64,000 nucleotides of DNA from Sulfurimonas aquatica. Lineage in GTDB: Bacteria > Campylobacterota > Campylobacteria > Campylobacterales > Sulfurimonadaceae. The stretch's first letter is position 1. Each line of letters opens with the position of its first letter. Below the pieces are notes generated by a model. The model did not search any database, was not told where the DNA came from, and saw nothing but the letters and a program-made list of their open reading frames with translations. The position numbers and the translations under genes are program-made. The DNA lies in NCBI RefSeq assembly GCF_017357825.1, contig NZ_CP046072.1, forward strand, positions 1,426,001 to 1,490,000, written 5' to 3'. Of the stretch, positions 2,946 through 41,813 are shown one piece after another.

Positions 2946-3865
2946 AACTGAGGTTGAACAAAAGGTATAACTTGTTTTTTTCTACTTAAAACACCATCAA
3001 GCCATACTTTTGAGTTTTCTAGTTTTACGCCAAACGCAGCTTCTATCCTAGAGTCATCATCGCTTACTACTAGAAGTTTTGATCCCTCTTTCATTATGTC
3101 TGTTAAAAGAACTAAAATAGTATGGAGTCCCTCTTCTTCTTTCATAACTTTCATATCTGCCATTATCTCATCTTCGCGAGACTCTAGTACGGAGATATCA
3201 ACCATCTCAAGCTGATTAACGCCAACCTTAACGCCATTCATGTCAAAAGCTTTGTAATCTCTTGTATTTAGATTTCTAGCTGTTGCACCATCTACAGCTG
3301 ATTTTGCAATAAACATATCCATCGCTATAGATTTATAATCTTCAACACCTGCAATTTTTGCAAGTTCTTTTACTGCTTTTGTATCAACTTTTGTACATGT
3401 TGGTGACTTAAAGATAACAGTATCGCTTAAGATAGCAAGCATCATCATTCCAGCTATATCTTTTGGAATCTCTACATCATAGGCTCTATACATTTCATAA
3501 ACAACTGTGTTAGAGCAGCCAATAGGTCTTATCCAGCACTCTAAAGGCGTAGATGTTGTTAAATCACCAAGTTTATGATGATCAACTATACCAAGAATAG
3601 TAGCTTCCATAATGTCTGCAGGAGCCTGTGCTTTATCTGAAAAATCTATAATGTAAACATTTTCTCCAGCTACTGAAGTTTTAAGTTCAGGCACCTTTGA
3701 TTCATATCCAAACTGTTTTAAAATAAATTTTGTTTCGGCAGATATTTCTCCCTGGCGAGTCGGTATACAATCTTCACCAAGTTGATTTTTTAAGTATGAA
3801 AGAGAAATAGATCCTACTATAGAATCACTATCGGGACTTGTGTGTCCAAAAACATATGTTGACAT
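2942..3865 (-). CDS. ppaC: Manganese-dependent inorganic pyrophosphatase (family II, DHH)
   Basis: Hydrolyses cytoplasmic pyrophosphate to phosphate. The 307 residues match the compact family II enzyme. The metal-binding motifs are present: FGHTSPDSDS (6-15), IIDFSD around 72-77, DHHKLGD (95-101) and the C-terminal SRKKQVIPF with the substrate-binding Arg/Lys. There is no CBS insert, so it should not be nucleotide-regulated in the way CBS-containing relatives are. It is a single gene between the convergent PH-domain gene and the signalling pair upstream. Confidence 0.93.
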   Translation of the reverse strand: MSTYVFGHTSPDSDSIVGSISLSYLKNQLGEDCIPTRQGEISAETKFILKQFGYESKVPELKTSVAGENVYIIDFSDKAQAPADIMEATILGIVDHHKLGDLTTSTPLECWIRPIGCSNTVVYEMYRAYDVEIPKDIAGMMMLAILSDTVIFKSPTCTKVDTKAVKELAKIAGVEDYKSIAMDMFIAKSAVDGATARNLNTRDYKAFDMNGVKVGVNQLEMVDISVLESREDEIMADMKVMKEEEGLHTILVLLTDIMKEGSKLLVVSDDDSRIEAAFGVKLENSKVWLDGVLSRKKQVIPFVQPQF

Positions 3866-3904
3866 TTGATGGCCTTTATAATTTTTTGAAATTATACTAC
3901 AGTT

Positions 3905-5647
3905 TTATAAACTTTCTAACTTTTTTATCATACCACTATAACTCTCCATCATAGTGTTAATAGAATCGATGTCAAACCTCTCAGTATGCTCTAAAAGTTC
4001 TTTTGCAAAATCCGAGAAAATCTTGATTTTGTACTTAAACGCCAACTTTAAAAGGGTTTCGCTAAAAAGTTGTATAACACTTAAGTCATTAGTTGAACGA
4101 GCTTCTTGGTATATTGCTTCAAGCTCACTGTAGTGAACACTTAGAAACTCTTTTGACTTTTTAATATCAACACTCTCAAGATCACTCTGTTTTATATTAA
4201 TATTTACAGGAGTAGACATAAGATGCATCAGATTTAAAGTTTTAATAGAAATCTTAAAGAGTTCCATCTTCGAAATTGGACGTTGTAAATGTCCTACAAC
4301 ATTAACTCCCGAATCTATAAACTCTACATTTTTCAAACTTCTAGACGTAATAGTAACAACGGGTGCCTTACTCATTTTTGCTATTACTTTAGAGACAGCA
4401 CTATCATCTCCAACTAATACTTCAAGATCTATAAAGACTATATCAAACTTATTCTCTTTAAATGCTACTATAGCTTCACGAGGATGCTCATAGGCAAATA
4501 CTTTTACAGCAGTTTGTATGAAACTCTGCTCAATTGTATTTCTGTCCTCAAGGGACTCATCAATGACCATTATCTTTCCACCCTCAGGCTTTATGAATGA
4601 AAAGTTAACATTTTCCTCATCAATCTTATCTTTTGCACTATAAAGGACTATCTCTACACCTTTTAGTAAAAGTTTAAATGTTGAACCTTTTGAGAGTTCA
4701 CTTCTAAAAGTGATATCTCCATTCATAAGTTTTGCTATTTTTTTATTCAAACACAGACCTAGACCCGAAGTTCTGTTCTCTGCTACATGTGCATTCTCTT
4801 TTGCATCAAAAATTTCAAAAATTTTATTCTGATTTTCCCTTGCTATTCCAACACCAGAATCTTCAACACTCACAAGTATATCTACTTCATTTTTTCTTGT
4901 GTCAAGATTGTTAACCATTAATTTAACTTTGACATATCCCTCAGGTGTGAATTTTATTGCATTTTCTATCAAGTTGTTCAAAATATCTTTTACTTTTTGA
5001 TCATCCATAATTAATGAATTTGGCATATTTTCATCAATCTCTAAAGAAAAATCAAGGTTTTTAGCATCAGCACTGGGTTGATGCTCTTCAATAAGCGTGT
5101 AAAACAGGTTTTGTATATCCACAACTCTGTTTTGAACCTCCACCGAACCCAACTCAAGTTTTGCTATCTCTATTGTGTTATCCATAAAAAGAAGGATTTT
5201 TTGAGATGATCTTGCTATACTTTTTAAGTAGTGTAGTAAATTCATCTCTTTTATATCGACAGATAAAAGATCTACAAAGGTCAATATTGGTTCAACATTG
5301 GATTTAACTTCTTCTCTTACGTCTGACATGAAATCATACTGTTTCATTTTTGCTTCTTGAGATTTAATCTTCTCTTCTTCAAGATAAGTTTTATATTTTT
5401 CTAACTCAGACGTTAGGTTCTCAATTTTACTAATTTGACTACTTGCATAACTTGTGTTTGATTTTAAACGAAGCTCTGAAATCTCTTTTTCATTAGATTG
5501 AATCTCACTGCTTAATCTTTGAACCTTTTCATCAAAGGCTTTAATCTCTATTTTTTGTTTTTTGTTTTTAATGCCTAGTAGAAGTACACCAAGTAAAAGA
5601 AAAACGATTAGAACTATTAAAAAAATAGATAAAGTATTTAAAATCAT
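3905..5647 (-). CDS. Hybrid histidine kinase-like protein lacking the phospho-acceptor His (HATPase + receiver + C-terminal helical domain)
   Basis: The 580 residues comprise one N-terminal TM helix (5-27), a coiled coil (30-100), a HisKA-like helix, a HATPase domain with N box NLIENAIKFT (225-234), G1 DSGVGI (263-268) and G2 GLGLCL (295-300), a receiver domain (~357-460, acceptor Asp 407) and a helical C-terminal part. Aligning the H box to HEIRTPLNAILGFSELL gives EEVKSNVEPILTFVDLL, with Glu112 where the His should be. The receiver has Arg-Pro instead of Lys-Pro. It would bind ATP but probably cannot autophosphorylate in the normal way. Its ATG overlaps the stop of the upstream HD-GYP gene (ATGA), so the two are translationally coupled. 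Confidence 0.8.
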   Translation of the reverse strand: MILNTLSIFLIVLIVFLLLGVLLLGIKNKKQKIEIKAFDEKVQRLSSEIQSNEKEISELRLKSNTSYASSQISKIENLTSELEKYKTYLEEEKIKSQEAKMKQYDFMSDVREEVKSNVEPILTFVDLLSVDIKEMNLLHYLKSIARSSQKILLFMDNTIEIAKLELGSVEVQNRVVDIQNLFYTLIEEHQPSADAKNLDFSLEIDENMPNSLIMDDQKVKDILNNLIENAIKFTPEGYVKVKLMVNNLDTRKNEVDILVSVEDSGVGIARENQNKIFEIFDAKENAHVAENRTSGLGLCLNKKIAKLMNGDITFRSELSKGSTFKLLLKGVEIVLYSAKDKIDEENVNFSFIKPEGGKIMVIDESLEDRNTIEQSFIQTAVKVFAYEHPREAIVAFKENKFDIVFIDLEVLVGDDSAVSKVIAKMSKAPVVTITSRSLKNVEFIDSGVNVVGHLQRPISKMELFKISIKTLNLMHLMSTPVNINIKQSDLESVDIKKSKEFLSVHYSELEAIYQEARSTNDLSVIQLFSETLLKLAFKYKIKIFSDFAKELLEHTERFDIDSINTMMESYSGMIKKLESL

Positions 5648-6699
5648 GTACTCTCTTCTTCTGTAATTTCTTTAAACATTTCAAGATGAGTACTAAAAAT
5701 ATCTACTAAACGCGGATCAAATTTTGTACCACTTGATTCTATAATATACTTTGAAGCCTCTTCAAAACTCCAAGCTTTCCTAAATGGACTCGCATGAGTT
5801 AAGGACTCTAAAACATCACAGATAGAAACAATTCTGGCAAAAATATGGATTTCATCTCCACTTAAAGCTTGTGGGTAGCCAGTACCATCATAGTTTTCAT
5901 GATGCTGGTGAGCGATCACTCGCACAGCCTGTATAGACTCAATCTGTGATTTTCTTAAAATTCCATCAGCTAATGTTGTATGCCCCTTCATAATCTCAAT
6001 CTCTTCATCACTTAATTTGTCATGTTTATTTAAGATTTTTTTATCAATAAGTATCTTGCCGATGTCATAAAGAGGTGCACAAATATATAAAATATCAATC
6101 TCTTGTTGTGTCAAATTACCTTCAAGTGATGCCAATTTTCTTGCCATAAGAGCAACACGATGGTTATGACTTGCATTATTTTCTGCATCTGACTGAATAA
6201 GTTCTGTTAAGATAGACATTATCTCTTTTTGAGCAAAAAGTAGATCTGAAGAGTATTTATCTTTTACTACTTTAATTTCACCTGCAAGATAATCGCTCTT
6301 TTTATTTAACTCTTTTTTATGCTTATAGAGCTCAATATGACTCTTTACTCGAGATTGAAGTTCTACGGGATGAAAAGGTTTTTTTATATAATCAACGGCT
6401 CCAACTTCGAAACCATGTTCAACTGACTCAATGTCAATCTTATCTGTAAAAAATATAACTGGAGTTTCTCTTATGGATGGGGAGTTTTTGATAATTTTAC
6501 ATAATGCAAAGCCATCAATATCAGGCATCACAACATCTAAGATTATTAAATCAAATCTTTTAGACTTAAGGATTTCTATAGCCTGCTTTGAACTAAGTGC
6601 ATAAGAGAAGTTATAAGAACTGCTTTTTAGTATGTTGATAGCTATCTTAATATTTTCACTAACTTCATTGACTATTAAAATTTCGTTTTTACTCTTCAT
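5644..6699 (-). CDS. Response regulator with degenerate HD-GYP domain
   Basis: An N-terminal receiver (1-125) has acceptor Asp55 (LIILDVVMP) and Lys107, but Asn11-Glu12 replaces the usual acidic Asp-Asp pair. A coiled linker leads to an HD-GYP domain (~165-345) with HNHRVALMARKLA, GHTTLADGIL and a full HHENYDGTGYP (266-276). The signature HDIGK is YDIGK (Tyr211-Asp212), so one metal-binding His is missing. HD-GYP domains normally hydrolyse cyclic di-GMP. This one may be inactive, altered in metal use, or a binding module. It is first in a two-gene unit with the kinase-like protein. Confidence 0.85.
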   Translation of the reverse strand: MKSKNEILIVNEVSENIKIAINILKSSSYNFSYALSSKQAIEILKSKRFDLIILDVVMPDIDGFALCKIIKNSPSIRETPVIFFTDKIDIESVEHGFEVGAVDYIKKPFHPVELQSRVKSHIELYKHKKELNKKSDYLAGEIKVVKDKYSSDLLFAQKEIMSILTELIQSDAENNASHNHRVALMARKLASLEGNLTQQEIDILYICAPLYDIGKILIDKKILNKHDKLSDEEIEIMKGHTTLADGILRKSQIESIQAVRVIAHQHHENYDGTGYPQALSGDEIHIFARIVSICDVLESLTHASPFRKAWSFEEASKYIIESSGTKFDPRLVDIFSTHLEMFKEITEEEST

Positions 6700-28423: not shown

Positions 28424-28442
28424 AATAATGATAATAATTATC
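28424..28442. promoter_or_regulatory. Fur-box-like operator 1
   Basis: The 19 bases AATAATGATAATAATTATC match the classical Fur consensus GATAATGATAATCATTATC at 17 of 19 positions. It lies in the divergent gap between the carboxyspermidine dehydrogenase gene and the porin, upstream of the porin -10. Confidence 0.7.
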
Positions 28443-28472
28443 ATAACTATTCACATTTTAAAAAAATATTTG

Positions 28473-28478: not shown

Positions 28479-28497
28479 TCGCTCAACAATTGATTTT

Positions 28498-28516
28498 GAT
28501 AGTAAATATCATAATC
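28498..28516. promoter_or_regulatory. Fur-box-like operator 2
   Basis: GATAGTAAATATCATAATC matches the Fur consensus at 14 of 19 positions, just downstream of the putative -10 and 28 bases before the porin start codon. Confidence 0.5.
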
Positions 28517-28543: not shown

Positions 28544-29776
28544 ATGAAAAACACTACACTTTCTTTACTCGCTTGTGCCCTTATGGCGTCATCTTCTCTT
28601 ATGGCTTCAAATGAGACTGACATAAAAGCGTTAAAACAAGAGATTAATGATTTAAAAGAGATTACTCAGAGCCTTATTGATGAGACGAGCGATTTAAAAA
28701 CTGGTTTTAACTACACTACAGTAGATCCAACAAAGTCTCATAGTGGTCTTGGAGCTGCCGCTTCTAAGGTTTACTACTCAAAGTCTCCACTTAGTATTGG
28801 TGGTTATGGAAAAATGGACTACTCATTCTCTTCAAATGAAGGCGCCGCTGATACGGATTTAATCGACGTGTATAGATTTATACCTTACATTGGTTATAAA
28901 TTTACAGATAACATCATTATGAATACTGAAATTGAGTTTGAACATGGAGGAAGTAAAGATGGAGCCGCTGGTGATGGTTATGTAATCATCGAGTTTATGT
29001 ATCTTGACTTTTTAAGAAATGCAAACTTTAACGTTAGACTTGGTAACCAATTAATGCCAATGGGTCTAATCAATGAAAAACATGAGCCAACTCTTTTTAC
29101 AACTGTTCAAAGACCAAATACGTCTAAAAAACTCATCCCTTCAACATGGCATGAAAATGGAGTTATGGCATATGGACAAATAACTGATAACGTACTCTAT
29201 AAAATAGGTGCTTTTTCCGCTCTTGATTTAACTATGGGTGCGGGTGAAGGAAATGACTGGTTAAGAGATAGTCGTATAGGCTCATTTAGAAATCAAAACA
29301 GACTTGGCTTGGCTATTGTTGGTCGCTTAGACTATACGGGCATTGACGGTTTATTTATTGGAGCGTCTGCATACAATGACACTGACGTAACTATGATAGA
29401 TGCGCATTTTGATTATAATAATAATGACTTTAGAGCCTATGGCGTTATAACGCAGACAACTCGTGAAGATGCGCCTACGGGAGAGCCACAAAAGGCTAAA
29501 GGTGGTTTTGTAAACATAGGATATGATTTACGTTCACTCTTCGCCTCTAACAATAAAATGCCAGTTTTTGCTCAGTTAGAGAGTGTCTCAGCTCAAGATG
29601 AGTTAGCTGGTGGTGGCTCAGTTGAGTCAACTGATACCTTAACTATAGGTATAAATTACTTTCCTCATGAGCAAGTAGTCCTAAAAGCCGACTATGCGAT
29701 GAATAAAGACAACTCTAAAGCGAGTAATATTGATGAAAAAGACATCTTTAGTCTCTCTATGGGATTCATATTCTAA
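28544..29776 (+). CDS. Outer-membrane porin (OprP/coiled-coil type)
   Basis: 410 residues: a signal peptide (MKNTTLSLLACALMASSSLMA), a short coiled coil (NETDIKALKQEINDLKEITQ, ~23-48), then an amphipathic beta-strand barrel ending in the aromatic terminus SLSMGFIF. The barrel has alternating strands with aromatic girdles (GYGKMDYSF, YKFTDNIIMNTEIEFE, FNVRLGNQLMPMG), as in phosphate-selective-type porins of Campylobacterota. The substrate is not readable. It is the first gene behind the Fur-box-like sites and 9 bases before the FMN-binding gene, so it may pass iron species or another substrate for the periplasmic redox protein. Confidence 0.85.
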   Translation: MKNTTLSLLACALMASSSLMASNETDIKALKQEINDLKEITQSLIDETSDLKTGFNYTTVDPTKSHSGLGAAASKVYYSKSPLSIGGYGKMDYSFSSNEGAADTDLIDVYRFIPYIGYKFTDNIIMNTEIEFEHGGSKDGAAGDGYVIIEFMYLDFLRNANFNVRLGNQLMPMGLINEKHEPTLFTTVQRPNTSKKLIPSTWHENGVMAYGQITDNVLYKIGAFSALDLTMGAGEGNDWLRDSRIGSFRNQNRLGLAIVGRLDYTGIDGLFIGASAYNDTDVTMIDAHFDYNNNDFRAYGVITQTTREDAPTGEPQKAKGGFVNIGYDLRSLFASNNKMPVFAQLESVSAQDELAGGGSVESTDTLTIGINYFPHEQVVLKADYAMNKDNSKASNIDEKDIFSLSMGFIF

Positions 29777-29785
29777 GGATTTTTA

Positions 29786-30310
29786 ATGAAAAATATATAT
29801 GTTTTTTTACTTTTATCCTTAGCGCTTCCACTGAGCGCTAAGGTACTCATCTCTCCTTTAGACGCTATGAAAGATGTTTACGGGCAAGACTCAAAAGTAG
29901 TTAAAAAAAATATTATGCTCTCAAAAAGTAAGTTTGAGAGCATACAAAAGAGTGCCGAAGTAAAGCTCTCCACTAAAATATATAGAATATTCACTGCAAC
30001 CAAAGATGACAAAGTCCTAGGTTATGGCGTTCTTGTAAATAATAAAGTACGTTCTAAAAATGCAGTTGTACTTTACTTTATATCTGAAGATATTTTAAAA
30101 AGTATAGAGGTTATCGCATTTAATGAGCCTCAAGAGTATATCCCTACAAAAACATGGAATGATCAGTTTAGAAATATAGATACTGACAATATGCTTCTTT
30201 TAAATCGTGACATACCTACTATTACTGGAGCAACTTTGAGCGCTAGAAGCATTACCGATAGCTCAAGGGTGGCATTTAGTATATATAATGAACTTCTAAA
30301 GGATAAGTAA
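29786..30310 (+). CDS. Periplasmic FMN-binding-domain protein with covalent flavinylation site
   Basis: 174 residues: a signal peptide (1-18, cleavage after LSA) and a single FMN_bind domain. The C-terminal TITGATLSARS contains the [ST]GAT-x-[ST] motif on which ApbE links FMN to the Thr, here Thr150. Upstream KIYRIFTATKDDKVLGYGVL is the usual first part of this domain. Related domains carry electrons in NqrC, RnfG and extracytoplasmic flavin systems. It is followed immediately by two membrane proteins and faced by apbE, consistent with a periplasmic electron carrier that needs ApbE for maturation. Confidence 0.88.
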   Translation: MKNIYVFLLLSLALPLSAKVLISPLDAMKDVYGQDSKVVKKNIMLSKSKFESIQKSAEVKLSTKIYRIFTATKDDKVLGYGVLVNNKVRSKNAVVLYFISEDILKSIEVIAFNEPQEYIPTKTWNDQFRNIDTDNMLLLNRDIPTITGATLSARSITDSSRVAFSIYNELLKDK

Positions 30311-30787
30311 GTGCGCTTTACTCTCATAAAAGATTTAAGAGAAGATAACACGATGAAGCCTGTCCTAGGTGGGCTTCTTTTTTTTATACTACTTTATCTT
30401 ATTTTTGATATTTTTGTTAAAGAGAGTAGTATGGGCTTAACTTTTACTACTCTCATGAATACCTTAGTGGGAAATGAAGAGGAGTTTATTGACCCTATGA
30501 GTAAATCTTCATTTTTAGAGTACATTCACATGGAAGTATTTTTTTCTATGATGATACTTCTCACGCTGAGTAGCGCCTTTATACGCTTATCATCAAAAGG
30601 TAGACACACTCTTCTAGTTTTAAATATTGTAATGATATGTGCCCTCTTCTCTTTGCTAGCATTAGTTCTATCTTACTTCATAAGTAGTGATTTTATCTAC
30701 CCTTATATAGTTAGCTTTTTGTCTTGGCATATACTTGGCGTCTATATGAGCTTGTACTCACTCTTTAGGTTATACTCTTGCAACTAA
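30311..30787 (+). CDS. Four-helix membrane protein, first of a paralogous pair
   Basis: 158 residues with about four TM helices (18-36, 72-92, 103-124, 130-152). The loop MGLTFTTLMNTLVGNEEEFI (41-60) is repeated as IGLSYQSVLDYYLGNEEKFI in the next gene, showing common ancestry. His73 at the start of helix 2 and His140 in helix 4 could ligand haem. The GTG start directly follows the FMN protein stop with AAGG at good distance; ATG at residue 15 is an alternative. I recognise no family. By context it may pass quinol electrons to the periplasmic flavoprotein. Confidence 0.7.
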   Translation: MRFTLIKDLREDNTMKPVLGGLLFFILLYLIFDIFVKESSMGLTFTTLMNTLVGNEEEFIDPMSKSSFLEYIHMEVFFSMMILLTLSSAFIRLSSKGRHTLLVLNIVMICALFSLLALVLSYFISSDFIYPYIVSFLSWHILGVYMSLYSLFRLYSCN

Positions 30788-31224
30788 TTTACAAATACGC
30801 CATTTTATATTTTTTACTTTTCTCCTTAGCGCTACTAGTAAGCGGTTTGGTAATCTTTGATGATAAGATAGGACTCTCCTATCAATCCGTACTCGATTAT
30901 TACTTGGGGAACGAAGAGAAGTTTATAGTTGCTAAATCGCCACAAGGGCTACTCAAAATAATCCTACCGCATATATTTTCTTTTGGACTATTTGTAATGG
31001 TAATACTCCATTTTCTGGCGTTTACTAAGCATGCTAAAAATAAAAACGTATCGATACTGATTTATGCAACGTTTTTTGTATCTTTTTTAGAGTTAGCTAG
31101 TCCATTTTTAATTCTACAAGGAGTTGAGTTTTTTGCATATGTAAAAATTATCTCTTTTGTGACGTTCGAGTTTTTAATTCTCTATGCGCTTTGGCTTGTT
31201 TTTGATAGCATCATTAATGACTAA
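30778..31224 (+). CDS. Four-helix membrane protein, second of a paralogous pair
   Basis: 148 residues with four TM helices (5-27, 59-82, 92-112, 119-144). It shares the GL[ST]-x(8)-LGNEE-x-FI loop with the preceding protein. His65, His78 and His85 fall at or in helix 2 (LPHIFSFGLFVMVILHF), spaced as candidate haem ligands. It starts at a TTG that overlaps the previous gene by 10 bases, and ends inside the convergent apbE gene (51-base antisense overlap). Function is unknown; a heterodimeric membrane redox or anchor unit is the inference. Confidence 0.7.
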   Translation: MQLIYKYAILYFLLFSLALLVSGLVIFDDKIGLSYQSVLDYYLGNEEKFIVAKSPQGLLKIILPHIFSFGLFVMVILHFLAFTKHAKNKNVSILIYATFFVSFLELASPFLILQGVEFFAYVKIISFVTFEFLILYALWLVFDSIIND

Positions 31225-32160
31225 GTCTTTAACATACTCTTTTATATTTTCACTCACCACAAGCTTTCTATCTCTCTCAAGTATTATATACGCGATATTT
31301 AAGCCATCTAAGAACTTATAAGCTTGCTTCCTTGGCATAACGCTTACGGCGGTGGCATAAGCGTCTAAATCACTACTTTTTAGCTCAGAGATAAGAGTAA
31401 TGGATATAAAGTTATCTTGAGACTCTTTTGTTTTAGGATTAATGAGATGGTTGTTTTTCATCTGCTTTACATAACGGTTATAGTTTCCACTCGTACTTAC
31501 TCCCATCTCCTCTTTTAAAGTCTCAAACTCTGCAAATGGTTCATCTGAAAATGGGTTTTGTACATTTATAGTGCATGAGCCTAAACAACGAATGTCTCCA
31601 CTTAGCGCGATAACCGCATAGCTAACTGATTTTTCTTTTAAATAGTCACTCACCTTATCTACTCCAAAACCTTTTCCCATGCCACCTAAGTCTATCTTAA
31701 CCCTCGCATCTATATGAGCCTCTTTTTTATTAAACGCCAAACTATTTAAAGAAGTGTCACTCCTTCTTAACTCATCCCTTGATGGAACTCTCTCATCTTC
31801 TCCAAATCTATACAAATCCTTTGTAATAGAGCCTATTGCAACGTTAAAGTAACCATCTGTAATTTTTGCATACTCTAGACCCAAACAGAGCGCCTCATAA
31901 GAGTAACTGTCCAATGTGGCTCTTTTGTTTTTGTTTAGAAGTGAGATTTGTGAGGATTTTTTATATGAAGAGAGTGAGTTTTCTACTTCATTTAGTATTT
32001 CAAACGCAGGCTTAAAATGCCTTTTGTTATTTTCTTCAAGTGAGAGTGTGACTATAGTTCCCATAAGTACTTTTGACTTGCTCACTACGTCTGCGTTTAC
32101 ATCTAAAAAAAGAAAGAACGTAGCCAGAAAAAGAGCTTGAGTTTGACGTCTGTAACTCAT
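31174..32160 (-). CDS. apbE: FAD:protein FMN transferase
   Basis: 328 residues with a signal peptide (~1-24) and no lipobox Cys visible. ApbE motifs: LMGTIVTLSL, DLGGMGKGFGVDKV, ALSGDIRCLG, STSGNYNRYV, HLINPKTK and SSDLDAYATAVSVM with the metal-binding residues. It moves FMN from FAD onto Thr of FMN-binding proteins in the periplasm, and the convergent neighbour encodes exactly such a target. It is the last gene of the minus-strand unit with dgkA and the transporter-acyltransferase. Confidence 0.93.
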   Translation of the reverse strand: MSYRRQTQALFLATFFLFLDVNADVVSKSKVLMGTIVTLSLEENNKRHFKPAFEILNEVENSLSSYKKSSQISLLNKNKRATLDSYSYEALCLGLEYAKITDGYFNVAIGSITKDLYRFGEDERVPSRDELRRSDTSLNSLAFNKKEAHIDARVKIDLGGMGKGFGVDKVSDYLKEKSVSYAVIALSGDIRCLGSCTINVQNPFSDEPFAEFETLKEEMGVSTSGNYNRYVKQMKNNHLINPKTKESQDNFISITLISELKSSDLDAYATAVSVMPRKQAYKFLDGLNIAYIILERDRKLVVSENIKEYVKDLVINDAIKNKPKRIEN

Positions 32161-32170
32161 AAAGTCTACT

Positions 32171-32542
32171 CTAAACTAGTTCAAACGCCACACATAAAAC
32201 AGCCACCCAGATAAGTCCAGTGAGTATGAGACTTAAAAGTACCATAGTCGCTGAGACGTCCTTAGCCTGCTTGGCAAGTATATGGTAATCCATCGTCACT
32301 AAATCCACAACTCTCTCAATAGCGGAGTTTGCAGCCTCAGCGATAAGAAGAATAAAAAGTGATAGAAAAAGTATGCTAGAGTGCACAAAACTTATAGGAA
32401 GTTGCCAAGCGACTACTCCCATCACAACAAAAAGTAAAAGCTGAAGTTTAAATGAACTCTCATTTTTCACCATGTCCACAAAACCTTCAAGCGCATACAT
32501 TCCATTTTTAAAAAGCGAATATTTTGGTTTATTTAGTTTCAT
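32171..32542 (-). CDS. dgkA: Diacylglycerol kinase (prokaryotic, membrane)
   Basis: 123 residues with three TM helices and the DgkA signature EAANSAIERVVDLV (about 68-81), in which Glu and Asn bind Mg-ATP. It phosphorylates diacylglycerol, recycling it into phospholipid synthesis. It overlaps the upstream transporter-acyltransferase gene by 14 bases, tying two phospholipid-salvage functions together. Confidence 0.93.
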   Translation of the reverse strand: MKLNKPKYSLFKNGMYALEGFVDMVKNESSFKLQLLLFVVMGVVAWQLPISFVHSSILFLSLFILLIAEAANSAIERVVDLVTMDYHILAKQAKDVSATMVLLSLILTGLIWVAVLCVAFELV

Positions 32543-34355
32543 ATTTTTCCTTCATCTTATTAATAATTTCTCTCATCTCATCCGCTTTTGTCTCTTTACT
32601 GACTGACTTTCCAAAGTAAACATTAACTATGCGGCGTTTAAGAAAAACCTTTTTTAAATCTTGCTCTTTGTACTTTGAAAAGCTACTCCCAAACATTCCA
32701 TCTATAAAGACGGGGACGATTACGCCATCATAGCTCTTATCTATAAGCTCATACCCAGAATAAAACTTCCCCAACTCAGCTGATTTGCTTATTTGTCCCT
32801 CAGGGAAGATACAAACAACTTTTTTATCTTGAAGTCTTTGGCTTGCCTCTTTAAACGCGTCTTTTGAAGCACGAGGAGAGAGAGGTATCACATCTCCTTT
32901 TTTAAAGAAATAGTTAAAGCCTCTCCATTCATATATATCTTTATCCATCATAAAGTTTATATGTCTAGCAATTGAGAGCTGTATGATAATCCAATCAAGC
33001 CAACTAACGTGATTACTTATGAGTAGAACTGCGCCCTTTGAGGGAATGTTTTCAAGCCCTATGTAGTTATATCTATGGCGAAGAATTGAGACAGATCTCA
33101 TTACACTCCAAAAAGTATCTACAAAGTAGAGTATTACTAACTTATAACTCAAGTAAACGCCAACCATACCCATAAGATAAAAAAGAACCTCGGAGTTCAT
33201 CCCGTAGTAGGCAAAGATAGTTGTAAGAATTAAAAATGAAACCATAAAAATATTTTGTATAAAATTATTACCGGCTAGCACCGTTCCTAAATGGATACGA
33301 GATGACAGTATCTGAATGCGAGCATTAAGTGGCACCATCAAAAAACCTGAAAAAACTCCAAACAGAGTAAACATAAAGGCCATGATAGGCATCGACTTTA
33401 CAAAGGGAATGAAGAACACAAGGAGAGTTATACCGACTGAACCAACAGCAGTAAGGCCCATGTTTATACTCTCTTTTGATAACTTTGCCGCCAAAATTGA
33501 GCCTATGACTATACCTACGCCTGCAAGAGCCATAACGCCTTGGACAAATATAGTGTTTGTAATTCCAAGTTCGCTCTTAGCGTACTCTCCAAAAATAGCA
33601 AGTACCACTTGAGAGATAGACCAAAAAAGACTCAGAGCGATGATGGCTTCAAATACCTCGCTTTTTCGCGTTACAGCTTTGAGGTTTTTAAGTAAATACT
33701 CGCCTCGTAAGTATTTGTTTGCCTGAAATCTCTTAGCGCTTGGTTTAAGCATCTTGTTTGGAAGTTTAGAAGCGAGATACCACTCTATTATGGAGCTTAT
33801 AACAAGTAACCATCCTATAGGTGCTATGGCTTTTAAGATCTCTGATTCATTTACAAGCTCCGGAGAATACATCCCCTCAAATAAAACAGTATAAAAAATG
33901 ATTCCACCTAAAATAGCTACGGTTGTTGTCGCTTGAATTGCCGCGTTTCCACTGCTAATGTATTTTGTACCTACCAACTCTTTTATATATCCATATTTCG
34001 CAGGTCCATATATAGCGCTTTGAAGTGCCAGTAAAAAGGTCATACTAAATGCGAGTAAAAAGTAGCCATTATAGTAAGAGTACGTTATACCTAGCGTTAT
34101 AAATACGGCAAATGCGGAAGAGTGTTTTAAGATACTGTTTTTAGCAAACTTATCCGCTAAAAAACCAGAGGGAGAAAATACTAATATAAAAGGGAGAAGC
34201 ACAAGAGCGTTAACGATGGCCGTCAGTACTATCTGCATATCTCCATCGTAGACTTTAAAGATGGTGTTTTGGATGATGATTTTATGACCAAGATCAGTAA
34301 AAGCATTTAAAAAGATAACTACGATGTAGTTAATAACCCCTACTAGTTTAAACAT
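32529..34355 (-). CDS. Fused MFS lysophospholipid transporter-like / PlsC acyltransferase
   Basis: A 608-residue fusion. Residues 1-~405 form a 12-helix MFS transporter like LplT (LNAFTDLGHKIIIQNTIF, FLADKFAKNS). Residues ~425-608 form a PlsC-type acyltransferase with NHVSWLDW (H-x4-D) and FPEGQIS. The combination resembles the LplT-Aas lysophospholipid flip-and-reacylate pathway, but without the acyl-ACP synthetase domain of Aas. It probably imports and reacylates lysophospholipids at the inner membrane. It is the first named gene of a unit with dgkA and apbE, preceded by an overlapping small frame. Confidence 0.88.
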   Translation of the reverse strand: MFKLVGVINYIVVIFLNAFTDLGHKIIIQNTIFKVYDGDMQIVLTAIVNALVLLPFILVFSPSGFLADKFAKNSILKHSSAFAVFITLGITYSYYNGYFLLAFSMTFLLALQSAIYGPAKYGYIKELVGTKYISSGNAAIQATTTVAILGGIIFYTVLFEGMYSPELVNESEILKAIAPIGWLLVISSIIEWYLASKLPNKMLKPSAKRFQANKYLRGEYLLKNLKAVTRKSEVFEAIIALSLFWSISQVVLAIFGEYAKSELGITNTIFVQGVMALAGVGIVIGSILAAKLSKESINMGLTAVGSVGITLLVFFIPFVKSMPIMAFMFTLFGVFSGFLMVPLNARIQILSSRIHLGTVLAGNNFIQNIFMVSFLILTTIFAYYGMNSEVLFYLMGMVGVYLSYKLVILYFVDTFWSVMRSVSILRHRYNYIGLENIPSKGAVLLISNHVSWLDWIIIQLSIARHINFMMDKDIYEWRGFNYFFKKGDVIPLSPRASKDAFKEASQRLQDKKVVCIFPEGQISKSAELGKFYSGYELIDKSYDGVIVPVFIDGMFGSSFSKYKEQDLKKVFLKRRIVNVYFGKSVSKETKADEMREIINKMKEKYETK

Positions 34356-34509: not shown

Positions 34510-35592
34510 TTATTTTGCCATGCCTCGTAAATAGTCTAACAAATAAATTATAATTCTTTTTCGTGCAACAACAATTTCTGCATGAAGAGTTTGACCAATA
34601 ATTAAAGGTTTATTCTTTATTTTTATATCATTTTTATCAAGCTTAACCGTTGTCTCATAAACAAACTCACCTAAAGAGTTTAACTTACTTGTTGCACTCA
34701 CATAAGTTAGTTTTCCTTTCCATACGCCAAACTGCTTGTACGGATATGCATCTATCTTTAGCCTTACATCCTGCCCCAGGATTACATTCGTCATTTTTGA
34801 TGTAGGAATCTCTACATTAGCTATCATATCCTCATTTTTAGGTACTATGACAAAAACGGGTAGATTATTTTTAATGCTCATATTTTCTCCCCAACTCTGA
34901 GCCAACGCCACAATTCCATCTACTGGCGAATATATTGCATCATTTTTATCCTGATGCATTCCTATATTCCCTCGTTTAGCATTTGAAAGTGTTATGTTAT
35001 TTCTGCTCATTTTATTATCAGCTTCTATAGTTAAAATTTTAGATTTAATCTCATTTAATTTAATAAGATATTTATTCTTTACAATAACTAAATTTGCACT
35101 AGCACTCGCAAGTTCATCCTTAGCTTTTAAGTATTTAATTTTTGTAATAAAACCTTCGCTAAAAAGGTTTTCTGAGAGTTTTTTTTGTTCTTTAGCACGG
35201 ATGAGTGTTTGCTCAGCTGAAAATATCTCAATTTCACTAGATTTTTCAATACTTCGATACTCACTTTGTAAGAGATTGTATAAGACTTTAGAGTTTTCTA
35301 AATTAGTGTTTATTTCTGCAATTTCGTTAGTACTTATGGTTGCTAATATTTGACCTTTTTTAACTTCCTCACCTTTTTTGATAAATATTTCAAGTAAAAC
35401 TCCATTTGAATCAACATATATATCTTTTTGTCCATTGACCGTACTTATTACCCCTGTACCTTTAGCTACAATATTAATGGTTGTAAACCATGATAGACTT
35501 AAAGCAAATATCATTAAGAATAAAAACGAATAGAATGCTCCACGGGCTAATATATGGGGTCTATTTAATAAAAACTGTTGTGTTTGGCTCAT
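34510..35592 (-). CDS. HlyD-family membrane fusion protein of a type I secretion system
   Basis: 360 residues: one N-terminal TM helix (~15-37), a lipoyl-like part (GVISTVNGQKDIYVDSNGVL ... VKKGQILATIS), an alpha-hairpin (85-200), a second lipoyl half (IYSPVDGIVALAQSWGENM) and a C-terminal beta-barrel (PTSKMTNVILGQDVRLKIDAYPY). It bridges the ABC exporter to the TolC-like channel. It is the third gene of the tolC-ABC-hlyD order, 12 bases after the ABC gene. Confidence 0.92.
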   Translation of the reverse strand: MSQTQQFLLNRPHILARGAFYSFLFLMIFALSLSWFTTINIVAKGTGVISTVNGQKDIYVDSNGVLLEIFIKKGEEVKKGQILATISTNEIAEINTNLENSKVLYNLLQSEYRSIEKSSEIEIFSAEQTLIRAKEQKKLSENLFSEGFITKIKYLKAKDELASASANLVIVKNKYLIKLNEIKSKILTIEADNKMSRNNITLSNAKRGNIGMHQDKNDAIYSPVDGIVALAQSWGENMSIKNNLPVFVIVPKNEDMIANVEIPTSKMTNVILGQDVRLKIDAYPYKQFGVWKGKLTYVSATSKLNSLGEFVYETTVKLDKNDIKIKNKPLIIGQTLHAEIVVARKRIIIYLLDYLRGMAK

Positions 35593-35604
35593 TATATTTT
35601 ACCT

Positions 35605-38600
35605 TTATGACAATTCGATCTGTTTTGCGCTTAAATAAAAATAATAGCCTCTATCCGCTATTAAGTCTAAATGTTTTCCACTCTCAACTACAGTTCCTTC
35701 ATCCATAACTACAATTTTGTCTGCATCTCTAATTAAAGATGATTTGTGCGTTATGATAAACATAGTTCTACCAAAACCAATGGTTTTTAGATTATCTTTG
35801 AAGGTCTGCTCAGTCTCACTATCAAGATCATTTGTTGGCTCATCCATAATAAGTATTGGAGGGTTTGAAACTAAGGCTCTTGCAATTGCGATCAACCTCT
35901 TTTCACCACCTGATAGACCCATACCTTTTTCACCAACTTGACTGTCATATCCTTTTGGCATATTAATGATAAAATCATGCGCTCCAGCTAGTGTTGCAGC
36001 TTCAACAACCTGAGCAAGAGTCGCATTTTGCATTCCTATACTAATATTACTGCGAATTGTTCCCATAAATAAGTTTGTATCTTGAAAAACGACACCAATG
36101 TGCGACCTTAGAGAGGCTAACTTTACTTGTGATATATCTTTATTATCAAGAAAGATTGTTCCTTTATCTGGATTAAAACTTCTTGTTAGAAGATTAATTA
36201 GCGTCGACTTTCCACTTCCTATTCTTCCCAATATTGCTACATACTCACCATGTTCTACCTGCAAGTTAAAATTAGAAATAATTTTTTTACTATCTTTTTC
36301 ATATGAAAAAGATACATTTTTAAATTCAACATCAGCCTTGCTTAGATATAGATCAGGTTTCTTTTTATCATTTAATCCTGATTCTGATTCGACGGAATAA
36401 ATTTTATTTAAGCCTGATGAGAGATCATCTGCTGCATATATTTCGTTATAAATTTGTATGATGTTTCCCAGTGGCGTTAGTGCCAACATTGCTATCATAT
36501 TAAACGCCAGTGCCTCACCTATACTAATCTCGTTAGAGAGAGCCAACATAGAAGCATAGCCTAGCACAACTGCAATTGTTAGTGTTTTCATAGCAGTAAT
36601 TGCCGAGTTTGAAACTGAGTTTATTGTTATAGATTTGTTAAGGTTTCTCAGTTTATTGATAAACATCTCTTCCCAAATCTTTTTATTAAAATTTGCCGCA
36701 TTAAATGTTTTAATAACTGAGATATTATTGATAGATTCAATAGTATGAGGGTCAGTGGAAGCATTCCTAGATAGTGTTTTTGGTAAATACTGCCTAGCAT
36801 AATATGTGGCCGTAAATACCGCGCCACCAAATATCAAAACAAAACCACTAAATATAAGAAAGAGTTTAATATTTCCTATCGCAAGTGCAAAAGTAAATGC
36901 TAATGCCGTTATTCCATCTATGAGAACAATAAAAATAACCTGAGATAAGTGCCTCTCAACAACCCTACCATCTTCTAAACTTGACATTATTTGACCAGTA
37001 TTTCTATTGTGAAAATAGGAGAGTGGTAAGGATATAAGATGAGAGTAGGCCCTTCCTAAAATCTCTACTTGTAGTTTACTTGAGAGAAAAAACTGAAGAT
37101 AACTACGTAGTGCGTTCAATAGTCCTGTAAATATAGCCACAACAATTAAAGAGACCATAATAACTATGAGCATATTCTCATTATTTTGTACAAGTACGTC
37201 ATCTATTAAAATTCTAATAAAAATTGGTGGTAAAAGACTTAATATAGATATAAATAAACTAATTGTTAAAATCTCAGCTAATATCTTTTTATATGGAAGT
37301 AGTGTCTCTAAAAATGAATGTAATGTAATCTTTTTATTCTCATTGCTATTTTTTGATGGTTTATCAACTAACATTACCTCCCCATCATAAAACTTTTTAA
37401 ATACATTCTTATGAAGATTTAAAAAACCTTTTGAGGGGTCAATAACTTTATATATATTTTTTTCAAAACCATACACAATAATGGATATATCGTTTAGCTT
37501 GGTAATAAAAGGCTCTTTTATCTTTTTTAATGCAGAGTACTTTAAATTAATTGCCGTTGCATTCATAAACGCTACATCATTAAAAATATCTTCTAAAAGT
37601 GAATAATCAATTCGGTTTATATAGTCATGTACATAGTCTCTATCAACCTTAACGCCATAGTATGACATCAACATTAAGGCACATGCGCTCATTGATGATA
37701 GTGGAGTGTTTGCTGTTATTAAATTGAATCCATCAAGACCTTCATTAATCTCTTCTTCTTGGATATTTCCTACCCTGCTCTTTTCTAAGCTTTTTTGTAA
37801 AAAAGCGTCTTTGGGAACTCCTGAGGCCTTATACATTTCAATAATATTGTTAATTTTCGAGGATAGTGCGGGATTTGAATTAATCATGTGTTTAAAATGA
37901 TCTTTATCAATTGAAACTAATTGCGTATCACCTAAACATTTAATTGTCGCTGCACGAGGAGTATCTGATATTAAAGCCATTTCCCCAAAAAATTTGCCGG
38001 CAACGAGTGTTGTCAACACAACGTCATTTCCATTGATATTTTTTGATACTTCTACAGCTCCAGCAGCTATTATATAAAACTTATCCCCTTCCTCACCTTC
38101 TGAAAATACAATCTCTCCATCACTACGGATATTTTCATAATTAAGTTCAAAAAGCCAGTTCGAAGTCTCTTTGGCAGTCAGTGATCCAAATGATCCAAAG
38201 TTTTTAAAAAATGCCTGTAGTGCTTGGTTGCCCGAATAGACTTGCAAAAAATTCTCAAACTCTTGATTTTGAATACACAAGGTTTTAAAATCATCATAAC
38301 TTAGTTTTGCCAGAACTACATCGCCTATTGCAACAATATCATGAGTTTTAACCTCTTTTTCTAAGATGGCATTTTCACCAAAGTAATTACCACGTCGATA
38401 AGTAGCTATAGTCTTCGTTCGTGCTCCATCACGCATGACTACGTTTGCTTTACCACTATAGACTACATATAAATCTTTGTTTGTCTCTTCTTCATGTAAA
38501 ATAGGTTCTCCATGTGAGAAAAATTCAAGACTAAACTTCTCAGAGAGTGATACCAGTATTTCTTCATCTAAGAAACCAAATATTTGACTATTTTTAAGAA

Positions 38601-38625
38601 GTTCTATCAATCCTGCATTATTCAT
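35605..38625 (-). CDS. ABC exporter with two N-terminal cyclic-nucleotide-binding domains and a degenerate C39 domain
   Basis: 1006 residues. CNB1 (~10-130); CNB2 (~150-260) with FGEMALISDTPRAAT (213-227), the phosphate-binding cassette with its Arg. Then a C39-like domain (~300-430) in which SMSACALML replaces the CGxAC core, so the protease Cys is Ser311 and the domain is likely only a docking module. Six TM helices (~440-720) and an ABC domain follow: GRIGSGKST, LSGGEKRLIAIARAL, ILIMDEPTNDLD, IITHKSS. The layout suggests a type I exporter gated or modulated by a cyclic nucleotide. No substrate gene is adjacent. Confidence 0.9.
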   Translation of the reverse strand: MNNAGLIELLKNSQIFGFLDEEILVSLSEKFSLEFFSHGEPILHEEETNKDLYVVYSGKANVVMRDGARTKTIATYRRGNYFGENAILEKEVKTHDIVAIGDVVLAKLSYDDFKTLCIQNQEFENFLQVYSGNQALQAFFKNFGSFGSLTAKETSNWLFELNYENIRSDGEIVFSEGEEGDKFYIIAAGAVEVSKNINGNDVVLTTLVAGKFFGEMALISDTPRAATIKCLGDTQLVSIDKDHFKHMINSNPALSSKINNIIEMYKASGVPKDAFLQKSLEKSRVGNIQEEEINEGLDGFNLITANTPLSSMSACALMLMSYYGVKVDRDYVHDYINRIDYSLLEDIFNDVAFMNATAINLKYSALKKIKEPFITKLNDISIIVYGFEKNIYKVIDPSKGFLNLHKNVFKKFYDGEVMLVDKPSKNSNENKKITLHSFLETLLPYKKILAEILTISLFISILSLLPPIFIRILIDDVLVQNNENMLIVIMVSLIVVAIFTGLLNALRSYLQFFLSSKLQVEILGRAYSHLISLPLSYFHNRNTGQIMSSLEDGRVVERHLSQVIFIVLIDGITALAFTFALAIGNIKLFLIFSGFVLIFGGAVFTATYYARQYLPKTLSRNASTDPHTIESINNISVIKTFNAANFNKKIWEEMFINKLRNLNKSITINSVSNSAITAMKTLTIAVVLGYASMLALSNEISIGEALAFNMIAMLALTPLGNIIQIYNEIYAADDLSSGLNKIYSVESESGLNDKKKPDLYLSKADVEFKNVSFSYEKDSKKIISNFNLQVEHGEYVAILGRIGSGKSTLINLLTRSFNPDKGTIFLDNKDISQVKLASLRSHIGVVFQDTNLFMGTIRSNISIGMQNATLAQVVEAATLAGAHDFIINMPKGYDSQVGEKGMGLSGGEKRLIAIARALVSNPPILIMDEPTNDLDSETEQTFKDNLKTIGFGRTMFIITHKSSLIRDADKIVVMDEGTVVESGKHLDLIADRGYYFYLSAKQIELS

Positions 38626-40784: not shown

Positions 40785-41813
40785 TTATATATCTATTACT
40801 TCATTAACTTCTAAACCAAAACCACTAAGTCCGACAAAGTCCGTATGCTTAAGCGAAGTAATCAGATTCATTTTTGATATACCAAATGATTTTATTATCT
40901 GCGCTCCAATTCCAAACTCTTTAGGCGCAGAGTTGTCTTGATGGTTTGTCTTATTTATAAAGACCAATATTCCACTGTTTATCTTTAAGTACTCTATGGA
41001 TTTTACTAGATTATTATACTTGTCTTGATTTAAGAGAAGCTCTATATCTGGTATAACATTGTGTACTCTTACGTTTGCAAGTTCTCCAGCGGAGTAAAAC
41101 TCTATAGCGGTATGTTCTATCTTGTCATGATCTTCAAACACGTGGCGTTTAACTTTTACTCCAAAAAACTCTATTTCCTCAACGCTCTTTTCATTTACAA
41201 GTCTCTCATTTGCTAAACGATACTCAACAATATCGGAGATAAAAACAGTTTTAAGATTATGCTCTTCACCAAAGATGTCTAAGTCGTCTCTGCGAGCCAT
41301 TGTTCCGTCTTCTTTAATGATTTCACATATAACGCCAGCTTCGCTCAGACCCGCTAAACGACAAATATCTACAGAGCCTTCAGTATGTCCCGTTCGAACA
41401 AGTGTACCACCGTCTTTAGCTATAAGTGGGAAAATATGCCCAGGTTTTACAAGGTCGTCTGCGTGAGAGATGGGATTTGCAAGTATTTTTATCGTATCGT
41501 CTCTCTCGCCTGCCGAGATGCCAGTTAAAGCGTTTTTCGCATCTACTGAAACTGTAAACGCTGTCTCATATGAAGACGTATTTGAGCTAACCATTGGATT
41601 AAGCTCAAGTCTAGAAGATATGCTTTTTCCTATTGCTACACAGATAAGACCTCGCGCATGCATAGCCATAAAGTTAACATGAGCGGGAGAACTAAATGCC
41701 GCAGCATATACAAGGTCTCCCTCATTTTCTCTATCCTCATCATCTACCATGATGATCATATTGCCCTTTTTAATCTCTTCAATCGCTTCTAATACTCTTT
41801 GTATAGGTGTCAT
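40785..41813 (-). CDS. ribBA: 3,4-dihydroxy-2-butanone-4-phosphate synthase with GTP cyclohydrolase II-like C-terminal domain
   Basis: 342 residues. The N-terminal RibB domain (1-~205) is intact: MVDDEDRENEGDLVYAA, RGLICVAIG, HPGHIFPL-type motif (KPGHIFPLIA) and RTGHTEGSVDICRLAGL. The C-terminal ~135 residues follow the GCHII outline but lack the C-x10-C-x-C zinc ligands and the catalytic region. It should make the xylene-ring precursor for riboflavin, while GTP cyclohydrolase II must come from elsewhere. It heads the run leading to the secretion operon. Confidence 0.88.
   Translation of the reverse strand: MTPIQRVLEAIEEIKKGNMIIMVDDEDRENEGDLVYAAAFSSPAHVNFMAMHARGLICVAIGKSISSRLELNPMVSSNTSSYETAFTVSVDAKNALTGISAGERDDTIKILANPISHADDLVKPGHIFPLIAKDGGTLVRTGHTEGSVDICRLAGLSEAGVICEIIKEDGTMARRDDLDIFGEEHNLKTVFISDIVEYRLANERLVNEKSVEEIEFFGVKVKRHVFEDHDKIEHTAIEFYSAGELANVRVHNVIPDIELLLNQDKYNNLVKSIEYLKINSGILVFINKTNHQDNSAPKEFGIGAQIIKSFGISKMNLITSLKHTDFVGLSGFGLEVNEVIDI

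Follow-up and report, generated by a model that had tools for sequence, protein, structure and literature searches.

PMC8238504 describes flavinylation systems as having two components, a carrier in the membrane and an extracytosolic protein that is flavinylated; several of these systems are linked there to iron assimilation. In the account of PMC10979944, proteins of the DUF4405 and FezC families bind haem b, DUF4405 genes have apbE nearby in a minority of cases, and the haem sites of FezC have been modelled as forming by homodimerisation. About half of the genomes with flavinylation machinery are said there to lack a previously characterised electron-transfer system; many such genomes were then assigned a carrier from a set of five that were themselves uncharacterised (3635 of 6230 genomes, PMC8238504), with others still without. 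On the side of iron control, the motif reported for Fur binding in H. pylori is a 7-1-7, TAATAATnATTATTA (PMC4557348); ribBA of that species is reported to be Fur-repressed, and RibBA to raise external iron reduction (PMC4557348, PMC6041382).

We analysed a 64,000-nucleotide stretch of the Sulfurimonas aquatica genome (the window) in which two adjacent genes encode small membrane proteins, called here A and B. We propose that A-B could be the two membrane subunits of a flavinylation module induced by iron shortage, acting as a heterodimeric, haem-b-type carrier from quinol to FMN for Fur-controlled ferric reduction, a reading which we see as having about an even chance of being right. The features of the locus are as follows.

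28429..28443, no strand assigned: palindrome of Fur-box type, a perfect 7-1-7, TGATAATAATTATCA (TGATAAT-A-ATTATCA), about 100 nt upstream of the porin gene
28497-28511: weaker copy of the palindrome, with 2 mismatches
28544..29776, forward strand: outer-membrane porin, Porin_O_P-like (Pfam PF07396), 410 aa, opening the conserved operon
29786..30310, forward strand: exported RnfG/NqrC-like FMN-binding protein, 174 aa, with weak NCBIfam, Pfam and PDB matches
30233-30235: codon of Thr150 of the RnfG-like protein, the candidate FMN-attachment residue, within ITGATLSAR
30311..30787, forward strand: A, a 4-TM protein of 158 aa with a GTG start; codons of H73 at 30527-30529 and of H140 at 30728-30730
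30778..31224, forward strand: B, a 4-TM paralogue of A, 148 aa, with a TTG start; codons of H65 at 30970-30972 and of H78 at 31009-31011
31174..32160, reverse strand: ApbE, FAD:protein FMN transferase, 328 aa, convergent with B
40788..41813, reverse strand: RibBA, riboflavin synthesis (Pfam DHBP_synthase E 6.6e-78, GTP_cyclohydro2 E 1.2e-12)

The 158- and 148-residue products from which the earlier note set out are both encoded here, in reading frames that overlap by 10 nt. The GTG start of A comes directly after the stop codon of the preceding FMN gene. In relatives of A a similar MRF..K stretch opens the protein, starting from an ATG in most of those read, and because the Phe of this stretch (column 16 of our joint alignment) is kept in 57/57 A proteins, the 158-residue form is supported; counted from the second start, H73 becomes H59 and H140 becomes H126. 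Elsewhere on the reverse strand of the window, positions 34510-38625 hold an HlyD-like membrane-fusion gene beside that of a 1006-aa ABC exporter, whose N-terminal repeats, read by eye, resemble cyclic-nucleotide-binding domains, and at 32529-34355 a 608-aa protein looks, again by eye, like a fusion of an MFS transporter with an acyltransferase, its gene adjoining a diacylglycerol-kinase-like gene.

The order porin, exported RnfG-like FMN protein, A and B, facing apbE, is conserved. Two of the 52 loci L007-L058 have a single 4-TM gene (L027 and L028, here called single-type) and 50 have the A-B pair, counting the window itself (L029) and several species held twice (e.g. L031 and L016); the FMN gene stands directly before A-B in 48 of these 50, the other two being interrupted by contig ends. 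Across 121 genomes of the family A was found in 71, and the FMN protein also in 71/71, while two more genomes are FMN-protein-only at these cut-offs: G033, whose FMN gene is at the end of a contig, and G080, in which B was detected. A wider search of 298 genomes across the phylum gave 26 matches to the B profile, 13 within the family and 13 beyond it, three of the latter (L081, L083, L084) being a different protein outside the operon. No single-type relatives were found in plasmids and viral contigs.

The operon core persists while its surroundings change. A multihaem cytochrome c gene lies between B and apbE in L009 (6174-7274, Pfam-checked), L010 of the culturable S. indica NW8N, L014 and L024, which form one Sulfurimonas group, and a NapC-type cytochrome c gene follows B in L107; other neighbours encode a copper oxidase and, by eye, MntP and sensor proteins, for which a link to iron is not clear. 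The different protein just mentioned (L081:1081-1785, also in L083 and L084) is 4-TM-like, with a CxxCH haem-c motif in its first loop and QAHIHMFG at TM2; it matches the B profile weakly (E about 1e-4), has no Pfam match in L081, where the preceding gene may, by eye, encode a haem-binding subunit, and may be a c-haem relative of the A/B scaffold.

The partners of A-B point to flavin chemistry. The RnfG-like protein has an N-terminal signal or anchor (read by eye), and its family matches are weak: NCBIfam RnfG at E 1.4e-4, below the cut-off of that family, Pfam FMN_bind at 17.1 bits against a cut-off of 22, and PDB 9eri_G (RnfG) at E 0.0075; its L028 homologue clears FMN_bind at 22.6. At the putative flavinylation site, T150 is present in 20/20 aligned rows, within TGAT or a variant of it, and we take it, by analogy with NqrC and RnfG, to be the candidate FMN-carrying residue. 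ApbE enzymes attach FMN covalently to such a threonine. By its profile matches the ApbE of this locus is an FMN transferase (Pfam PF02424, E 1e-53, 183 bits against a cut-off of 25.6; FMN transferases in the PDB, best E 3.1e-20), and the porin also passes its family threshold (PF07396, 21.3 bits against 20.9). With the FMN protein and ApbE as partners, a redox role of A-B becomes much more likely, and A-B are the sole membrane-carrier candidates in the operon.

Flavin supply is brought in by a ribBA-type gene (a recurrent 342-residue type, its identity checked on the L008 and window copies), which stands directly before apbE, on the same strand and with a gap of -50 to 98 nt, in 18 of 39 loci with apbE. 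These 18 are all of the Sulfurimonas-type loci L007-L026 that have that position in view. Among the 18 wider-sampled loci with apbE (L092-L111) ribBA was beside apbE in none, and in the window it lies 8.6 kb from apbE, not adjacent to it.

On sequence comparison A and B are paralogues, which bears out the suggestion of the earlier note that they arose by a diverged duplication. BLASTP aligns them at E 3e-6 (26% identity over 115 aa). Profile-profile comparison gives E 1.7e-10 over 125 columns, and 4.5e-5 with the loop masked, both with a B profile that contains the two single-type rows; of 13 controls, the reversed profile scored E 0.14 and 12 local column shuffles 0.0097-0.8. Leaving out the single-type rows gives E 1.6e-8 and, with the loop masked too, 0.0015 at a probability of 16.5%, so that the loop carries much of the paralogy signal. 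In a tree built from 72 rows after thinning, A and B form separate groups (support 100/100 and 99/97), and the single-type rows (support 95/59) join at the branch between them, although long branches make both the root and the position of these two rows unsure.

The four membrane helices read in each protein by the earlier note reappear in AlphaFold2 models, each with four long helices and a short helix in the first loop (pLDDT 93.6 for A, 92.1 for B), and the loop sequences that it quoted as shared are exact and at the same place in both products. Conservation is lower in the LGNEE loop than at the histidines: the Gly of the loop is found in 57/57 A and 47/53 B proteins, and some distant B proteins have lost the loop. 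The first loop, which carries LGNEE, has acidic and basic residues in a ratio of 4:0 in A and 3:2 in B, and the second loop is basic; this charge balance is a modest sign that the LGNEE loop may face the periplasm.

Histidine conservation was read from a single alignment that joins 57 A with 53 B proteins from loci L007-L058 and L069-L088. It left out L001-L006 (own genome or decoy matches), L081, L083 and L084 (the different protein outside the operon), sequences below 110 aa, duplicates and contained sequences; filtering took 67 A and 69 B sequences to 57 and 55, the latter figure counting the two single-type rows as well. The histidines that the earlier note had singled out, conceding that their variation among homologues would tell against its haem idea, are kept almost without exception: H73 of A (column 87) in 57/57 proteins, H140 of A (column 156) in 56/57 with a gap in the remaining one, and H65 (column 89) and H78 (column 102) of B each in 53/53. 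The same note placed a His at the start of TM2 in both; a His is indeed present in each, but in different columns (87 and 89), two residues apart. Column 89 is E, D, Q, N or K in A and column 102 is A, S or T, while column 87 in B is L, V, T or A. Jointly, A and B have four histidines of invariant type, to be set beside the four central histidines that form the haem sites in DUF4405/FezC-like cytochromes.

The single-type proteins of L027 and L028 have His at columns 87, 89 and 102 together, and an extra His at column 141 that is mostly absent from A and B; the TM4 His of A (H140) is absent from them. A and B hold complementary parts of the single-type set, with the addition of the TM4 His in A. 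This suggests that the histidine ligands may have been shared out after duplication, which would make a heterodimer necessary, an interpretation drawn from two single-type sequences and a tree with an uncertain root.

Family searches gave little to name these proteins by. Against Pfam, the 43 rows of A (alignment A1) gave 8 families at E <=1, each in 1/43 rows, and the 47 B-type rows (alignment A2) gave 22, none in more than 5/47 rows, the best being TgpA_N (E 2e-4, 3/47 rows) and the most widespread ANM3_C2H2_Zf (best 0.015, 5/47 rows); cut-offs are known for the first row only of these alignments, and other rows might pass one. The earlier note had recognised no named family, which is consistent with these results and with NCBIfam, where nothing useful was found for A or B; the match to a non-redox family that it had held against its own idea did not emerge from matches so scattered and weak.

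Of the cytochrome b and DUF4405-like families to which that note had pointed, prokaryotic cytochrome b561 (PF01292) matches the B protein of the window at 18.1 bits (E 0.0025), far below its cut-off of 30.1; this weak match is seen in 2/47 B-type rows, with a best E of 0.0017 in the further row, and in 0/43 A rows. DUF4405 (PF14358) is absent from the Pfam matches at E <=1 of the 47 B-type and 43 A rows, and has six helices per chain against the four modelled in A and in B. In the S. aquatica genome itself the DUF4405 profile has three matches, all elsewhere than A/B; the sole one over threshold (C1:1492433-1492597) lies 2.4 kb past the end of the window, so a recognised DUF4405 member coexists with A-B. 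None of the NapH-, MsrQ-, PepSY-, DsbD- or NQR/RNF-like membrane subunits (PF12801, PF01794, PF03929 or PF16357, PF02683, PF03116) is among the A or B matches.

PDB sequence searches with alignments A1, A2 and A3 returned one chance match (E 0.84) and nothing else. Foldseek against the PDB reached E 3.0 for B and 3.7 for A at best, and VIA-align, with 26 and 150 chains compared, gave Z of up to 7.8 for B and 10.6 for A with unrelated helical bundles, an uninformative range; haem A synthase, which comes up for A (Z 6.2, 131 aligned, rmsd 4.1), scores below such bundles.

Given the want of any good haem-protein profile match, the histidines of A-B might hold a quinone or a metal ion in place of haem, so that the pair would be a membrane anchor which oxidises quinol and itself reduces the FMN protein. 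By rough counting along the helices, A-H73 and B-H65 both lie close to the periplasm at about equal depth, A-H140 is mid-membrane and B-H78 is close to the cytoplasm, and these differing depths would suit such an arrangement, as would the invariant Lys in TM4 of B (53/53), which could line a quinone site. However, electron transfer across the membrane without haem, flavin or an Fe-S centre is hard to picture, and buried invariant histidines are the usual mark of b-type cytochromes; we consider a haem-free A-B unlikely.

The evidence that ties the preferred haem-b carrier to iron begins with the palindrome. The 15-mer before the porin is the only 0-mismatch site in the 2.85 Mb genome, and of the two sites with 1 mismatch one lies directly before feoA-feoB and the other (182196) within coding sequence. 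At <=2 mismatches the 15-mer is found in 29/30 homologous porin upstream regions, which are related by descent and not independent, against 1/311 other upstream regions of the same loci (excluding intergenic regions common to divergent genes and a mislabelled L111 porin row) and 18/1200 dinucleotide shuffles; the reversed 15-mer never comes below 3 mismatches in the 30 regions. Genome-wide there is no enrichment at <=2 mismatches (58 sites per strand, where the reversed 15-mer gives 73). At <=3 mismatches, the classic 19-mer Fur box occurs at one place in the 64 kb window, before the porin (0.05 expected), and genome-wide as 5 matches at 4 places against 3 for the reversed pattern, a scan that is weak on its own because 2 of the 4 places are inside ORFs. 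The operon promoter thus has a putative Fur site of conserved type, and the operon is apparently under the control of Fur, the cell's iron sensor.

Neighbouring genes add to this. In L028 the single-type operon diverges from feoB, and between feoB and the porin (3586-3616) there is an inverted repeat of 15 nt around a 1-nt centre, with 93% complementarity, which is perhaps the Fur box of that lineage. The single-type operon of L027, which has no porin match, lies after a FUR gene, and the region upstream of its FMN gene gave no inverted repeat; the L111 operon is divergent from genes for imelysin and di-haem oxidoreductase (DHOR) (3036-5749), with one Fur-type box between. FeoB is present in the S. 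aquatica genome itself. The L028 FeoB, used as query against 592 called genes from 43 stretches, where gene calling misses genes in GC-rich loci, retrieved no FeoB and gave a weak GTPase match only.

Fur control could also be explained without an iron substrate if the same Fur-controlled flavinylated module were an iron-sparing respiratory branch, in which the flavin protein replaces c-type cytochromes and serves a non-iron periplasmic acceptor; the cytochromes c that adjoin some clusters would fit this. Against it, the gene groups recurring around the operon include no recognised terminal reductase, the presence of feoB, fur and imelysin beside it speaks for iron uptake, and a haem-bearing A-B would not save iron, and we find such a branch improbable. 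That A-B is instead an iron or metal permease using the FMN protein as its ferric reductase would accord with the Fur-type box and the iron genes near single-type loci, but is very improbable, as no transport motif was recognised by eye in the A/B helices and the genome already has FeoB.

Returning to the haem-b carrier, we infer the following course for the electrons. Menaquinol in the inner membrane would pass them to the A-B heterodimer, whose conserved histidines would bind haem b. A-H73 and B-H65 could have one haem between them, probably close to the periplasmic face, and a shared periplasmic haem is the most plausible site because these two histidines are at similar depth; A-H140 and B-H78 may ligate a second haem or a quinone and, since their depths differ, need not share a haem. 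From A-B the electrons would reach the FMN fixed by ApbE on Thr150 of the exported RnfG-like protein, which may dock on the outward-facing LGNEE loops. The FMN protein might then reduce ferric iron that enters via the co-transcribed porin, and the Fe(II) would be imported by FeoB.

In favour of this mechanism we count the constancy of the operon, the co-occurrence of the FMN protein with A, the invariant histidines, the histidine set of the single-type proteins, the Fur-type box, the ribBA-apbE pairing, the feoB, FUR and imelysin neighbours and the cytochromes c. Against it stand the lack of a haem-protein profile or clear fold match, the histidine depths, the lack of FeoB among the 592 called genes, the variable neighbours, the separation of ribBA from apbE in L092-L111 and the window, the unenriched 15-mer and the kinship of the 30 upstream regions.

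Considering how such a pair could have evolved, we suggest, more tentatively and with rather less than an even expectation, that a single 4-TM ancestor, with three histidines in TM2, gave rise by duplication to two copies that retained complementary histidines, A one of them together with a new TM4 His and B the other two. The resulting obligate heterodimer would feed a Fur-controlled, porin-assisted ferric reductase, and would be, in Campylobacterota, a membrane cytochrome of a new, flavinylation-coupled class, perhaps providing a siderophore-independent iron route. Single-type and split-type proteins together offer a readable case of histidines divided between duplicated subunits. A-B is also a candidate flavinylation carrier, without a Pfam name, in 71/121 sampled genomes of the family, and the conserved site of iron-response type makes its role directly testable.

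Among published work, judged by title and start of abstract, we found no description of this operon, a comparison that covers articles and not the individual clusters in the supplementary tables of PMC8238504. Its FMN protein is like RnfG and NqrC in being an exported protein of FMN_bind type with a conserved candidate flavinylation Thr, and differs in that no other Rnf or Nqr gene was recognised beside it here and its profile scores are all weak. The RibBA-linked ferric reduction described for H. pylori and C. jejuni (PMC6041382, PMC4557348) likewise ties Fur-controlled flavin supply to external ferric reduction, and ribBA joins apbE in 18 related loci here; those accounts, in contrast, concern riboflavin made by the cell and not protein-bound FMN with a membrane carrier. 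With the NapH-, MsrQ-, PepSY-, DsbD- and NQR/RNF-like systems of PMC8238504 the locus shares a gene arrangement in which an electron carrier of the membrane is encoded alongside an FMN protein, ApbE or both, but none of the five membrane families set out there is among the Pfam matches of A or B. Cytochrome b561 also has haem-b membrane helices and is weakly matched by B, although far under the cut-off.

The closest likeness is to DUF4405 and FezC as PMC10979944 describes them: multi-helix membrane proteins with conserved histidines, some DUF4405 genes lying near apbE, and a similar working in outline. Unlike these, A-B consists of two diverged paralogues and not of one 6-TM chain or a homodimer (FezC being compared by its description only), and is partnered with an RnfG-like FMN protein and a porin behind a Fur-type box. 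A-B may be a variant of the known flavinylation-associated cytochrome type, outside DUF4405 by profile.
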